Assembly (NCBI GenBank): GCA_937872175.1
Contig: CALMPI010000016.1
Location: 1 to 64,000, forward strand
DNA from: an uncultured Flavobacteriales bacterium
GTDB lineage: Bacteria > Bacteroidota > Bacteroidia > Flavobacteriales_F > PHOS-HE28
Direction of reading: 5' to 3'
Length of the DNA stretch: 64,000 nt
Shown here: one piece after another, positions 46,235 to 50,501 of the stretch
Layout of the letters: each line of letters opens with the position of its first letter
Numbering within the stretch: position 1 is the first letter of the stretch
Made by a program: the position numbers and the translations under genes
Notes under the pieces: model-generated
Database searches by the model: none
Told to the model about the DNA's origin: nothing
Seen by the model: the letters and a program-made list of their open reading frames with translations, nothing else

Positions 46235-47443
46235 ATGCCCGTCCCCGCCCAGCCCGTGCGCCGTTCCATCGTGGGACGGATCGGGTACATCCTCTTCCTC
46301 CTCACGTTCACCGTCGCCTGCGTGGAACTGGGTGCCCGGTACTACCTGGGCCACGTACTGCACAAGGCCAGCGAGAATAAATTCCGCTTCAACTCCTACC
46401 GGGTCTATGAGCACGTCCCCGGCTATGAGGAGCGCGAGGGCGACCACGTGCGGCTGGCCATCAACGCGAACGGGTTCAGGCGTTCGGCGGATGTACCGCA
46501 GGTGAAGCCGCCCGGCACGGTGCGCATCTTCTTCCTGGGCGGGTCGGCCGCGCACGGCATCAGCAGCGCCGCCCCCTACCCCGTGGTGCATGTGGACCAG
46601 ACGGAGACGGTGGACGCCCATCTCGAACGACTGTTGAACCGGTCCATGCCCGGGCAGCGCATCGAGGTGATCAATGCGGCCGTCACCGGGTACCAGGTGT
46701 TCCAGCATACGCAATACCTGCTCACCGAACTGCTGTCGTACGACCCGGACATGGTGATCTTCTTCGACGGCGCGAACGATCACTTCGTGAACGACACGAA
46801 CTACCGGTACATGGAGGACTTCCGCTATCAGTTCTGGCGCCAGAGGCTTCAGGAGCCCTCCGCAGGCGGACTGTTCACGTACATGGGGCACTGGCTCTCG
46901 CGGCACAGCGCGGCCTTCCGCGGATACATGGCCTGGAGCATGATCCGCGATGCGGTGCGATGCGGTGAACGGGTGGATTGGCAGGCCGCGTACATGGATG
47001 ACGCCACCACGGTGCGGAATCACAAGGCCGTCGCGCAGGACCAGTTCCTGCGGGCGATCGAGACGAACCTGTTCCTGCTCGAACGGGACAGCGTGAAGGC
47101 GGTGCTCTGCCTGCAACCGATGCTCGTGCTTCGCGAACCGGCGCTCCTGGCGGCGGAGGAACGCGCATTCCTCCATGAGGACCCGAACGTGAAGGCGCTC
47201 TACCCCGTGGTGCTGGGCGAACTGAAGGATGTGGCGCAACGCTGGCGCGTGCCCCTTGTCGACCTGAACGTGCCGTTCAATGACCCGCAGCACCGAGGTC
47301 GGCAGCTCCTGATCGACTATTGCCACCTGAACGGGGCCGGCGGTGAGGTCTGCGCCCAGGCCCTGCTGCCCGTGGTCCAGGTGCTGCTGCGTCCGTCACC
47401 CGTGGACAGCCTGGCTACAGCACCTGAAGGATCAGGCACTTGA
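46235..47443 (+). CDS. SGNH/GDSL-like hydrolase-type membrane-anchored protein
   Basis: 402 residues. One N-terminal transmembrane helix (RIGYILFLLTFTVACVELGA). The extracytoplasmic domain has RIFFLGGSAAHGISS (block I, with the catalytic serine in GGSAAHG), VINAAVTGYQVFQHTQYLLT (block II), FFDGANDHF (block III, GxND) and LLIDYCHLNGAGGEV (block V, DxxH). These fit SGNH hydrolases that act on acetylated polysaccharides or esters. The last 29 bp overlap the convergent RlmI-like gene. Confidence 0.82.
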   Translation: MPVPAQPVRRSIVGRIGYILFLLTFTVACVELGARYYLGHVLHKASENKFRFNSYRVYEHVPGYEEREGDHVRLAINANGFRRSADVPQVKPPGTVRIFFLGGSAAHGISSAAPYPVVHVDQTETVDAHLERLLNRSMPGQRIEVINAAVTGYQVFQHTQYLLTELLSYDPDMVIFFDGANDHFVNDTNYRYMEDFRYQFWRQRLQEPSAGGLFTYMGHWLSRHSAAFRGYMAWSMIRDAVRCGERVDWQAAYMDDATTVRNHKAVAQDQFLRAIETNLFLLERDSVKAVLCLQPMLVLREPALLAAEERAFLHEDPNVKALYPVVLGELKDVAQRWRVPLVDLNVPFNDPQHRGRQLLIDYCHLNGAGGEVCAQALLPVVQVLLRPSPVDSLATAPEGSGT

Positions 47444-48587
47444 GGTAGAGGCTTTCAGGGATGCTCCAGTGCACCGGATGGTCCGGTGGCTGCGTCCCGT
47501 AGTAGACCTCACGCAACTGGCGCCGCGCATCCTTCGCCGCATCCGCGACCATGGCCCTGAACAGGTCCGGGGTCATGTGCTGGCTGCAACTGCAGGTGAC
47601 CAGGAAGCCCCCCCGCCGCAGGGACTTCATCGCACGGAGGTTGATCTCCTTGTATCCCCTGGTCGCACCGGCGATGGTGGCCCTGCTCTTGGCAAAGGCA
47701 GGAGGATCGAGCACGATCACGTCCCACATGCGCCCCGTGCGGCCCGCTTCGGCCAGGAAGTCGAAGACGTTGGCCTCCCTGAAGGCGCATCGCGCGGTCA
47801 GCCCGTTCATCTCGGCATTGACCACGGCTGCGCGGATGGCCGTGGGGCTGATGTCGAGCCCCTCCACCTGCTTTGCCCCGTACCGCGCCGCGTGCAAGGC
47901 GAACCCTCCTGTATGCGTGAAGCAATCGAGGACCTCAGCGCCGGCAACGACCGGCTCCATGGCCGCGTGATTCAGTCGCTGGTCGAGGAAATGTCCGGTC
48001 TTCTGACCCTCCGCCAGGTCCACTTGGACGCGCAGCCCGTTCTCCTCAATGGTGGACCGGGTCGGGAACGGATCGCCCAGGAAGCCCGTTGTACGGGGCA
48101 GTCCTTCCTTCTCCCTGACCGATGCATCGTTCCGTTCGTAGAAACGGGTCACGCCGGTCACCTCGCGCAGCGCGTCCACCAGGCTGTGCTTCCATCGATC
48201 GATGCCCAGGCTCAGGGTTTGAAGCACGATGGCGTCGCCGAACTTATCGGCCACGCAGGCTGGCAGGCCGTCCGATTCGCCGAAGACCACCCGACATGAC
48301 CCGGTATCCACCATGCGCTGCCGGAACGTCCACGCTTCCCTCACCCGGCGCAGGAAGAAATCGTCGTCGATGGGTTCGTCGAGATCGGGAGTGAGGATGC
48401 GGACCTGGATCTTGCTGGCCGGGTTGAAGTAACCCTGGCCGATCGGGCGCCTGCGGTCATCGAACACCTGCACGACGGCACCCGGAGCGGGCTGGCCCTC
48501 GACGCGCAACACCTGATTGTCGAAGATCCATGGATGACCATTGCGGACCCGGTCGCGCGGATCACGGATGATGGTGCGGGCACGCAT
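47415..48587 (-). CDS. rlmI: RlmI-like class I SAM-dependent rRNA methyltransferase
   Basis: 390 residues. An N-terminal PUA domain (IIRDPRDRVRNGHPWIFDNQ, GQGYFNPASKIQVRIL) precedes an RlmI/RlmK-type methyltransferase: LDCFTHTGGFALHAARYGAK (SAM site), VEGLDISPTAIRAAVVNAEM and VIVLDPPAFAKSRATIAGAT (DPPAF catalytic loop). It likely makes m5C in 23S rRNA. ATG 48587 follows a TACCTTGC box by 7 nt; the longer frame runs into the palindrome array and is not coding. The 3' end overlaps the SGNH gene by 29 bp tail to tail. Confidence 0.88.
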   Translation of the reverse strand: MRARTIIRDPRDRVRNGHPWIFDNQVLRVEGQPAPGAVVQVFDDRRRPIGQGYFNPASKIQVRILTPDLDEPIDDDFFLRRVREAWTFRQRMVDTGSCRVVFGESDGLPACVADKFGDAIVLQTLSLGIDRWKHSLVDALREVTGVTRFYERNDASVREKEGLPRTTGFLGDPFPTRSTIEENGLRVQVDLAEGQKTGHFLDQRLNHAAMEPVVAGAEVLDCFTHTGGFALHAARYGAKQVEGLDISPTAIRAAVVNAEMNGLTARCAFREANVFDFLAEAGRTGRMWDVIVLDPPAFAKSRATIAGATRGYKEINLRAMKSLRRGGFLVTCSCSQHMTPDLFRAMVADAAKDARRQLREVYYGTQPPDHPVHWSIPESLYLKCLILQVL

Positions 48588-48594
48588 GCGTGGT

Positions 48595-48602
48595 GCAAGG
48601 TA
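48595..48602 (-). promoter_or_regulatory. -7 box of the RlmI-like gene
   Basis: TACCTTGC on the minus strand, 7 nt before the ATG at 48587. It lies ~30 bp from the first palindrome. Confidence 0.45.
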
Positions 48603-48632
48603 GATGCTCCGTGGGGCGGTGATCATCGAACA

Positions 48633-48650
48633 TATGTATGGCCATACATA
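48633..48650. repeat. Palindrome copy 1
   Basis: TATGTATGGCCATACATA, a perfect 18-bp palindrome, centre at 48641/48642. Confidence 0.97.
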
Positions 48651-48772
48651 CTTTCCGCCTCGCGCTGCCGCGTGGGGCGAACCGAAGCTCTTGGCAGCCC
48701 TGGTTCCGCACCCAGCGATGGGCCGACTGATCGGCAGCTTCCTGCTCTTCGTCGAACACGCCCCCCGGAAGC

Positions 48773-48788
48773 ATGTATGGCCATACAT
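48773..48788. repeat. Palindrome copy 2
   Basis: ATGTATGGCCATACAT, a perfect 16-bp palindrome, centre 139 bp from copy 1. A second small palindrome, ATTGGCCAAT, follows at 48792-48801. Confidence 0.97.
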
Positions 48789-49077
48789 ACTATTGGCCAA
48801 TGAGGAACGCTGGATGGATAAATGAGGCCGACGGAGATCCCAGCACAGGTCGTTGTCCACCAGCTGCTACGGCAATTGTTGGGGCATCTGGGCGTGGTCG
48901 GAGATCACGCCACGACCAGCTTCTTCCAAGGCCATCTCCATATCGAACCCTCACGATCGCTCAGCACCTGATCGACCTACAGGCAGGCTCGGCACCCTCG
49001 TGCCCGAGCTCTGGATCCTCCTTGCATGTGGTGCTCCACGACCGCGGTCCACGATGACAAGGCCCCTTTGCGGCATC

Positions 49078-49095
49078 TATGTATGGCCATACATA
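49078..49095. repeat. Palindrome copy 3
   Basis: TATGTATGGCCATACATA, 18 bp perfect, centre 306 bp from copy 2. Confidence 0.97.
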
Positions 49096-49229
49096 TGTGA
49101 TGGTGCGCAGGATGACCCCACGTGGACCGCGCCACCAGACCCGTCGGTCGAACACAGGATCGCCCTCGCGAACCAGCATGGCTGAAGGACTCAGTGGATG
49201 TAACGAGTGACCGGACCCACCTTCCGAAC

Positions 49230-49249
49230 GTATGTATGGCCATACATAC
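49230..49249. repeat. Palindrome copy 4
   Basis: GTATGTATGGCCATACATAC, 20 bp perfect (longest copy), centre 153 bp from copy 3, about 100 bp before the downstream gene. Confidence 0.97.
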
Positions 49250-49297
49250 ATCGCCAGGCACTCGCACCGGTCGTCCGATCCCTTTCCGCTCAGCCCC

Positions 49298-49306
49298 GAA
49301 CTTCGC
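49298..49306 (+). promoter_or_regulatory. Putative -7 box of the hydroxyacyl-CoA dehydrogenase gene
   Basis: GAACTTCGC, 25 nt before the ATG at 49332; weak. Confidence 0.3.
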
Positions 49307-49331
49307 CCCTCGAACCACCATCAACGCGGTC

Positions 49332-50501
49332 ATGAATACATCGATGGAAGTGGGGATCATCGGGGCTGGAGCGATGGGCAGCGGGATCGCCCAGGTGGCG
49401 GCCCGGGCCGGTCATCAGGTGCGGCTCCTGGATGCCCGACCGGGTGCGGCGCAGGGCGCCGTGGATGCCTTGCGCACAACGCTCTCCGCGTTGGCCACGA
49501 AGGGCAGGTTGACACCCTCCGACGCTGAGGAGACCTGCGTCCGGTTGCGGGCTGTGGGCTCTATGGCCGAACTCACCAACGCAGGACTGGTGATCGAGGC
49601 CATCGTCGAGGACCTGTCCGTCAAGCGCGGCCTCTTTGCCGAGTTGGAGTCCGTGGTCCGGCGCAACTGCATACTGGCCACCAACACCAGCAGCCTGAGC
49701 GTGACGGCCATCGCGGGCGCCTGCGCCCATCCTGAACGCGTGATCGGCCTGCACTTCTTCAACCCCGCACCGCTGATGCCGTTGGTGGAAGTGGTGCCTG
49801 GCCTGGTCACTGCCGATGGTCTGGCCGAACAGGTCCGCCAACGCATGAGCCAATGGGGCAAGACCCCGGTCATCTGCAAAGACACCCCCGGCTTCATCGT
49901 CAACCGGGTGGCCCGCCCCTTCTATGGCGAAGCCCTGCGCATCCTGGAGGAAGGACTGGCCGACATGGTCACCATCGACCATGCCATGCGCGCGGTGGGG
50001 GGCTTCCGCATGGGACCGTTCGAGCTAATGGACCTCATTGGCAACGATGTCAATTTCGCCGTCACGCGCAGTGTGTTCGAGGCCTTCTTCTTTGACCCAC
50101 GCTACCGGCCGAGCCTCACCCAGCAGCGCCAGGTGGAGAGCGGTCGGCTGGGCAGAAAGTCCGGTCGGGGGTACTACGACCACACCGGCACCGCCGCCCC
50201 ACCCACGCCCAAGGAAGATCCGAAGCTGCTGAACGACATCTGCTGGCGGATCGTGGTGATGCTGATCAACGAGGCTGCTGATGCGCTCTACCTGGGGATC
50301 GCCGACCGCGATGCTCTGGAACTGGCCATGACCAAAGGGGTCAACTATCCGAAAGGCTTGTTGCGATGGGCCGATGAGGTCGGGCTTGAACACTGCCTCT
50401 CCACCTTGGAACATCTTCAGGCCGAATATGGGGAGGACCGCTATCGACCTTCTCCGCTCTTGCGGAAGCTGGTGCGCGAGCAGCGGAACTTCCACGGTTG
50501 A
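49332..50501 (+). CDS. 3-hydroxyacyl-CoA dehydrogenase
   Basis: 389 residues. NAD-binding GIIGAGAMGSGIAQVAARAG, then NTSSLSVTAIA, HFFNPAPLMPLVEVVPG and KDTPGFIVNRVARPFYGEAL of the 3HCDH family, followed by two C-terminal 3HCDH helical domains (the second from INEAADALYLGIADRD). It oxidises L-3-hydroxyacyl-CoA to the 3-ketoacyl-CoA in beta-oxidation, phenylacetate or butyrate pathways; it is longer than single-domain Hbd (~280 aa). Start at 49332 rather than the longer open frame, which would translate palindrome copy 4. Confidence 0.92.
   Translation: MNTSMEVGIIGAGAMGSGIAQVAARAGHQVRLLDARPGAAQGAVDALRTTLSALATKGRLTPSDAEETCVRLRAVGSMAELTNAGLVIEAIVEDLSVKRGLFAELESVVRRNCILATNTSSLSVTAIAGACAHPERVIGLHFFNPAPLMPLVEVVPGLVTADGLAEQVRQRMSQWGKTPVICKDTPGFIVNRVARPFYGEALRILEEGLADMVTIDHAMRAVGGFRMGPFELMDLIGNDVNFAVTRSVFEAFFFDPRYRPSLTQQRQVESGRLGRKSGRGYYDHTGTAAPPTPKEDPKLLNDICWRIVVMLINEAADALYLGIADRDALELAMTKGVNYPKGLLRWADEVGLEHCLSTLEHLQAEYGEDRYRPSPLLRKLVREQRNFHG

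Follow-up and report, generated by a model that had tools for sequence, protein, structure and literature searches.

The palindrome array and its neighbouring genes

The window, as the whole 64,000-nucleotide stretch of DNA analysed here is called, contains a gap between a gene for an RlmI-like SAM methyltransferase with a PUA domain (47415-48621, minus strand, start approximate) and a gene for a PaaH-like 3-hydroxyacyl-CoA dehydrogenase (49344-50501, plus strand), and this gap holds four exact copies of the core palindrome ATGTATGGCCATACAT. The cores, read on the plus strand, lie at 48634-48649, 48773-48788, 49079-49094 and 49232-49247, within extended sites at 48629-48654, 48768-48793, 49074-49099 and 49227-49252. 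Direct reading of the sequence confirmed the description given in the first-pass annotation of this DNA: the four copies are perfect dyads of 18, 16, 18 and 20 bp, and their start-to-start steps are 139, 306 and 153 bp. The view that such an array is beyond chance was also borne out, with 4 cores observed in the window against 0.07 expected and none of 100 shuffles reaching four or more; a search of the window at up to three mismatches found no cores beyond the four exact ones.

Extended to 26 bp, the dyad has the consensus half-site CCATACAT-A(C/T)(G/T)T(C/T), and sequence information ends at its edge. A decayed fifth copy, ttccaaGGCCATctcc, which keeps the bases GGCCAT, lies at approximately 48924-48939 in the middle of the 306-bp spacer and aligns with intact palindromes of two other genomes (G033 and G025). 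The spacers (within 48655-49226) are unconserved in sequence and have neither an RNA folding signal nor an Rfam match. The palindrome is open in all reading frames (MYGHTY, CMAIHT, YVWPYI), so that naive open reading frame calls (47415-48860 and 49122-50501) run both neighbouring genes through palindromes; the extension of the left-hand call to 48860 is spurious.

Distribution of the palindromes in the genus

A sequence search of the genome to which the window belongs (G000; 4.3 Mb in 52 contigs) found 31 exact cores, or 36 when one-base variants are counted. These fall into 14 intergenic clusters, each with 2-5 copies at distances of 113-306 bp. There are no single sites; the genome-wide count, which had been proposed as a check at the outset, thus excludes a motif scattered singly at hundreds of positions. 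The exact core is present in 9 of 45 genomes inside the genus and in none of 53 outside it, and the palindromes are a genus-specific family of sites. Unlike G000, relatives do have a few single sites.

The palindrome type differs between species: ATGTATGGCCATACAT occurs in seven species, ATGCATGGCCATGCAT in G019, ATTCATGGCCATGAAT in G017, TTGCATGGCCATGCAA in G012, G002, G004 and G022, and TTGCTTGTACAAGCAA in G041, and, except in G002 and G006, each species' type recurs at other loci of its own genome, mostly in pairs or arrays. One array in G004 (L106, C1:1914704-1915412) mixes TTGCATGGCCATGCAA with the half-and-half form TTGCATGGCCATGCAT, as if it stood between two motif types. A viral origin of the palindromes was considered and rejected: two IMG/VR contigs carry one single core each, without an array.

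A MarR-family gene that covaries with the motif

A MarR-family gene encoding 145 amino acids, labelled palR here, adjoins several clusters in different species. The G000 copy (G000:C16:192308-192742) adjoins a four-copy cluster between folP and a conserved gene, on the same contig as the window array and 143 kb from it; the first-pass statement that no regulator gene adjoins the array is therefore correct within the window but not for the contig as a whole. In a genus-wide search palR was found in 15 of the 45 genomes. It is a single-copy gene, adjoined or bracketed by palindromes in 14 congeners and bracketed on both sides in most of the congeners that carry it (G027, G037, G008, G019, G017, G012, G004, G041 and others), with one palindrome approximately 16-30 bp upstream of its start codon and further copies beyond the gene; in G002 and G006, palindromes were seen around palR only.

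The palR product matches the Pfam MarR family (PF01047) at 42.8 bits, against a cut-off of 24.6, and its profile matches the structures of SlyA, MgrA, SarZ and OhrR, while its score against the OhrR NCBIfam equivalogs, 33 bits, is below their cut-off of 200. Cys11, at the sensor position of OhrR and MgrA in the N-terminal helix, is invariant in 14 of 14 sequences covering all motif types, a conservation which suggests that PalR may sense redox state. Distant MarR homologues from other bacterial families outside the genus (L139, L140, L142) adjoin a conventional-looking operator, ATTTGTATATACAAAT, so that an autoregulatory operator is likely to have been the ancestral state. Second MarR paralogues in G035 (L076) and G027 (L079) are flanked by a different, TGCTTGGCCAGCCA-like palindrome type, and the half-sites of G035b are GTACAGCCCAG.

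The motif and palR co-occur: the motif is present in 14 of the 15 genomes with palR as against 3 of the 30 without it (Fisher p=5.6e-8). The half-site changes with the palR clade (ATGTATGG, ATGCATGG, ATTCATGG, TTGCATGG, TTGCTTGT), and motif type tracks both the PalR tree, which has long branches and was set against a species-tree proxy of one gene, and differences in the recognition helix (QSTVTKT, QSTVTKA and [PSA]STISR). At one locus where both flanks are homologous, the array is of the ATGCATGG type in G019 and of the TTGCATGG type in G004; as read from this alignment, the whole set has switched motif in place. A second in-place case, between G017 and G000 (L094/L041), is comparable on a single flank. 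Because the motif changes with the palR clade and is nearly absent from genomes without palR, the palindromes are most likely the binding sites of its product, and we consider it very probable that PalR binds them.

Conserved sites and rapidly changing spacers

Orthologous clusters in G033 and/or G025 were found for 13 of the 14 G000 clusters. Across three close species, identity is 93% in the core and 75% in the flanks, but 39% in the spacers. The majority of two-copy loci differ by 0-2 bp in spacer length, with an ungapped identity mostly of 0.25-0.5. In the same species pairs, ordinary intergenic gaps keep their length as well (median change 0-1 bp) and are approximately 75-95% identical, so the peculiarity of the arrays is the fast turnover of spacer sequence at constant length rather than constancy of length alone, and the length constraint was discarded as proof of selection. 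Substitution types in the spacers are near saturation and have no special spectrum.

Folding the spacers as RNA gave no structure signal (278 strand folds, mean z -0.15), and no spacer matched Rfam. Reverse-complemented spacers match no better than chance between the compared species, no recombinase is present among the Pfam-identified immediate neighbours, and no shuffling of spacers between loci was seen; nothing was found in favour of the shufflon-like recombination that had been suggested for the window array. A weak additional dyad (TGATnnTCA / TTGATnATCAA) is over-represented in the spacers of the G000, G033, G025 and G037 arrays (11 occurrences against 0.7 expected; for example L041, L049 and L119), often approximately 35 bp from a palindrome, and a few of its copies match the IHF consensus. 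IHF-like sites in the spacers number 4 against 0.26 expected, counts too small to build an explanation on.

Insertion, duplication and dispersal

The gap that holds the window array is filled in G000 (724 bp), G033 (722 bp) and G025 (585 bp), and empty in G023 (93 bp) and G026 (71 bp), both of which lack palR and have no palindromes at this site. The five-copy array at L035 occupies a 968-bp gap in G000 only; the gap is 66 bp in G025 and G033, where the next protein is approximately 91% identical to that of G000. From comparisons of this kind we infer that arrays arrive as insertions, and no target-site duplication was recognised at the filled and empty sites. In G017, one 101-bp unit occurs at no fewer than three unrelated loci and in both orientations, with an identity of 61-71% in its interior versus about 30-48% in the flanks. 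To this extent, the suggestion that the window array is an inserted repetitive element holds in part.

Array units also duplicate in tandem, including as blocks of two and three units. In the same G017 genome the array unit is repeated in larger inverted blocks (C16, C26 and C39), and locus L093 has eight copies and a very strong hairpin in one spacer. G026, which lacks palR, retains one decaying pair at a site common to G000. Arrays are, in our judgement, probably dispersed units. MarR proteins are not known to have recombinase or nuclease activity, so their dispersal would need separate machinery.

Gene context and alternative explanations

Automatic orientation calls on the 48 classifiable clusters in 12 genomes place 20 in convergent, 17 in tandem and 11 in divergent gaps, and two of these calls (L033 and L042) proved wrong on hand checking; the hand-checked G000 clusters number 4, 6 and 4, respectively. 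Arrays thus show no bias towards gene 5' ends and often lie between convergent genes. Their neighbours are functionally unrelated, and include RlmI, hydroxyacyl-CoA dehydrogenase, IF-2, a globin, TonB receptors, FKBP, dihydroorotate dehydrogenase, thiolase and Sua5, among others. This disregard of gene orientation and neighbour function across the genus argues that the arrays are not promoter operators, and a non-promoter role for the dispersed arrays is the reading that we favour on balance. The first-pass proposal of an operator array for a dimeric regulator therefore survives as regards the sites, with which a MarR-family protein covaries, but not as regards promoter control.

An ordinary MarR regulon, in which PalR would repress or activate the genes adjacent to the arrays, would account for the palindrome just upstream of palR itself, for the conventional operator of the MarR genes outside the genus, and for the four arrays of G000 that lie in divergent gaps (the window, L032, L040 and L042), two of which, the window and L042, are beside genes for acyl-CoA enzymes; these four arrays could act as operators. 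As a general explanation a regulon is unlikely, given the gene context just described, the lack of any promoter match around the sites in a scan that covered the sigma-70 type, and the existence of arrays that reach 8 copies, at steps of approximately 99 bp, and do not resemble operators. Convergent placement would also suit RNA hairpins or terminators, but RNA folding of the copies is weak (z -0.1 to -2.7), no T-tract terminator was found at them, and it is a DNA-binding protein, not the strength of pairing, that motif type tracks, which makes this the least probable of the alternatives.

The palindromes might instead be selfish, REPIN-like miniature elements, doublets moved in trans by a cognate transposase, with palR captured or its operators hijacked. 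The doublet as minimal unit, the dispersal of the G017 unit, the insertion polymorphism, the intergenic placement and a single-copy partner gene with its own repeats on either side all agree with such elements (PMC3116915). Y1/HUH transposases, however, occur in 21 of 24 genomes regardless of palindromes, and none of the 15 Y1/HUH loci checked holds one; with the transposase genes unlinked to the palindromes, a RAYT/IS200 gene was rejected as the partner. The cores, moreover, have long been kept while the spacers randomised, which is not expected of a dead element, and the motif follows the MarR recognition helix, so that we regard this explanation, too, as doubtful. Dispersed dyads together with a protein of regulator fold also resemble the sites of SlmA and Noc (PMC4331003, PMC4726725), but the loci number only 1-3 in some species and are absent from most congeners, and sites for partition, the replication terminus or nucleoid occlusion (SlmA, Noc or parS-like) are very unlikely; no evidence was found for the partition-type sites that had been listed among the first options.

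Relation to known systems

REPIN-RAYT systems consist of REP doublets and a REP-associated tyrosine transposase (PMC3116915), and the palindromes resemble them in being short, extragenic and clustered, with the doublet as the usual minimal unit, in having a single-copy gene that is flanked by the cognate repeat and whose lineage the repeat type tracks, and in having spacers that are less conserved than the repeats. The partner here is instead a MarR winged-helix protein rather than an HUH nuclease, with Y1 genes unlinked, and the repeats are perfect symmetric dyads rather than GTAG-tagged imperfect hairpins (in G000, only 3 copies have GTAG within 40 bp). Copies here number in the tens, and their mobility is deduced from comparison alone. 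Since the defining transposase is absent, the system is not filed under REPIN-RAYT. CGTC-tagged REPs, palindromic intergenic dimers with Bacteroidetes among their hosts and no linked transposase (PMC3733652), are similar in all of these respects, but CGTC is not fixed here (17 of 184 half-sites) and the repeat has a linked regulator gene.

With the autoregulated MarR, OhrR and MgrA repressors the system shares a Pfam MarR match above the gathering score and a palindrome just upstream of the regulator's own gene; it differs from them in its multi-copy arrays at many non-promoter loci. datA-type clusters titrate DnaA. These clusters and the SlmA and Noc sites likewise lie away from promoters, clustered or dispersed, and serve a protein that binds DNA sequence-specifically (as PalR putatively does), whereas the palindromes are distinguished by lineage-specific insertion, rapid motif switching and the lack of a known cell-cycle partner.

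Proposed explanation and implications

We propose that dimers of PalR bind each dyad, and that the palindromes would have begun as autoregulatory operators of palR, presumably mediating autorepression, and would later have dispersed in units bracketed by palindromes. Arrays would have been built by local tandem duplication, and new ones founded by occasional copying of units to new intergenic sites, the window array being one such dispersed array. The dispersed arrays may then be nucleoprotein clusters of PalR, serving titration or local chromosome structure rather than promoters. Since at least two sites are always present, binding may be cooperative or bridged, as would suit a titrating or structural cluster. 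The account as a whole, of cognate PalR sites that spread as palindrome-bracketed units and form non-promoter nucleoprotein clusters, we hold to be reasonably likely; titration or structure as the specific role is a tentative suggestion.

Equally tentative is the possibility that the palindromes constitute a new kind of dispersed system of extragenic palindromes. Its single-copy partner would be a MarR regulator instead of a transposase; operator units would proliferate and be retained away from promoters, the motif set would change with the protein, and the spacers, whether overwritten or hypervariable, would keep a constant length. No description of such a MarR-linked palindrome system was found in the open-licence literature. 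In this genus a transcription factor would have changed specificity together with tens of its sites among close species, a natural setting in which the coevolution of transcription factors and sites becomes directly testable. The results also suggest that REPIN-like palindrome pairs may proliferate independently of a RAYT transposase, and point to possible roles of MarR proteins away from promoters.
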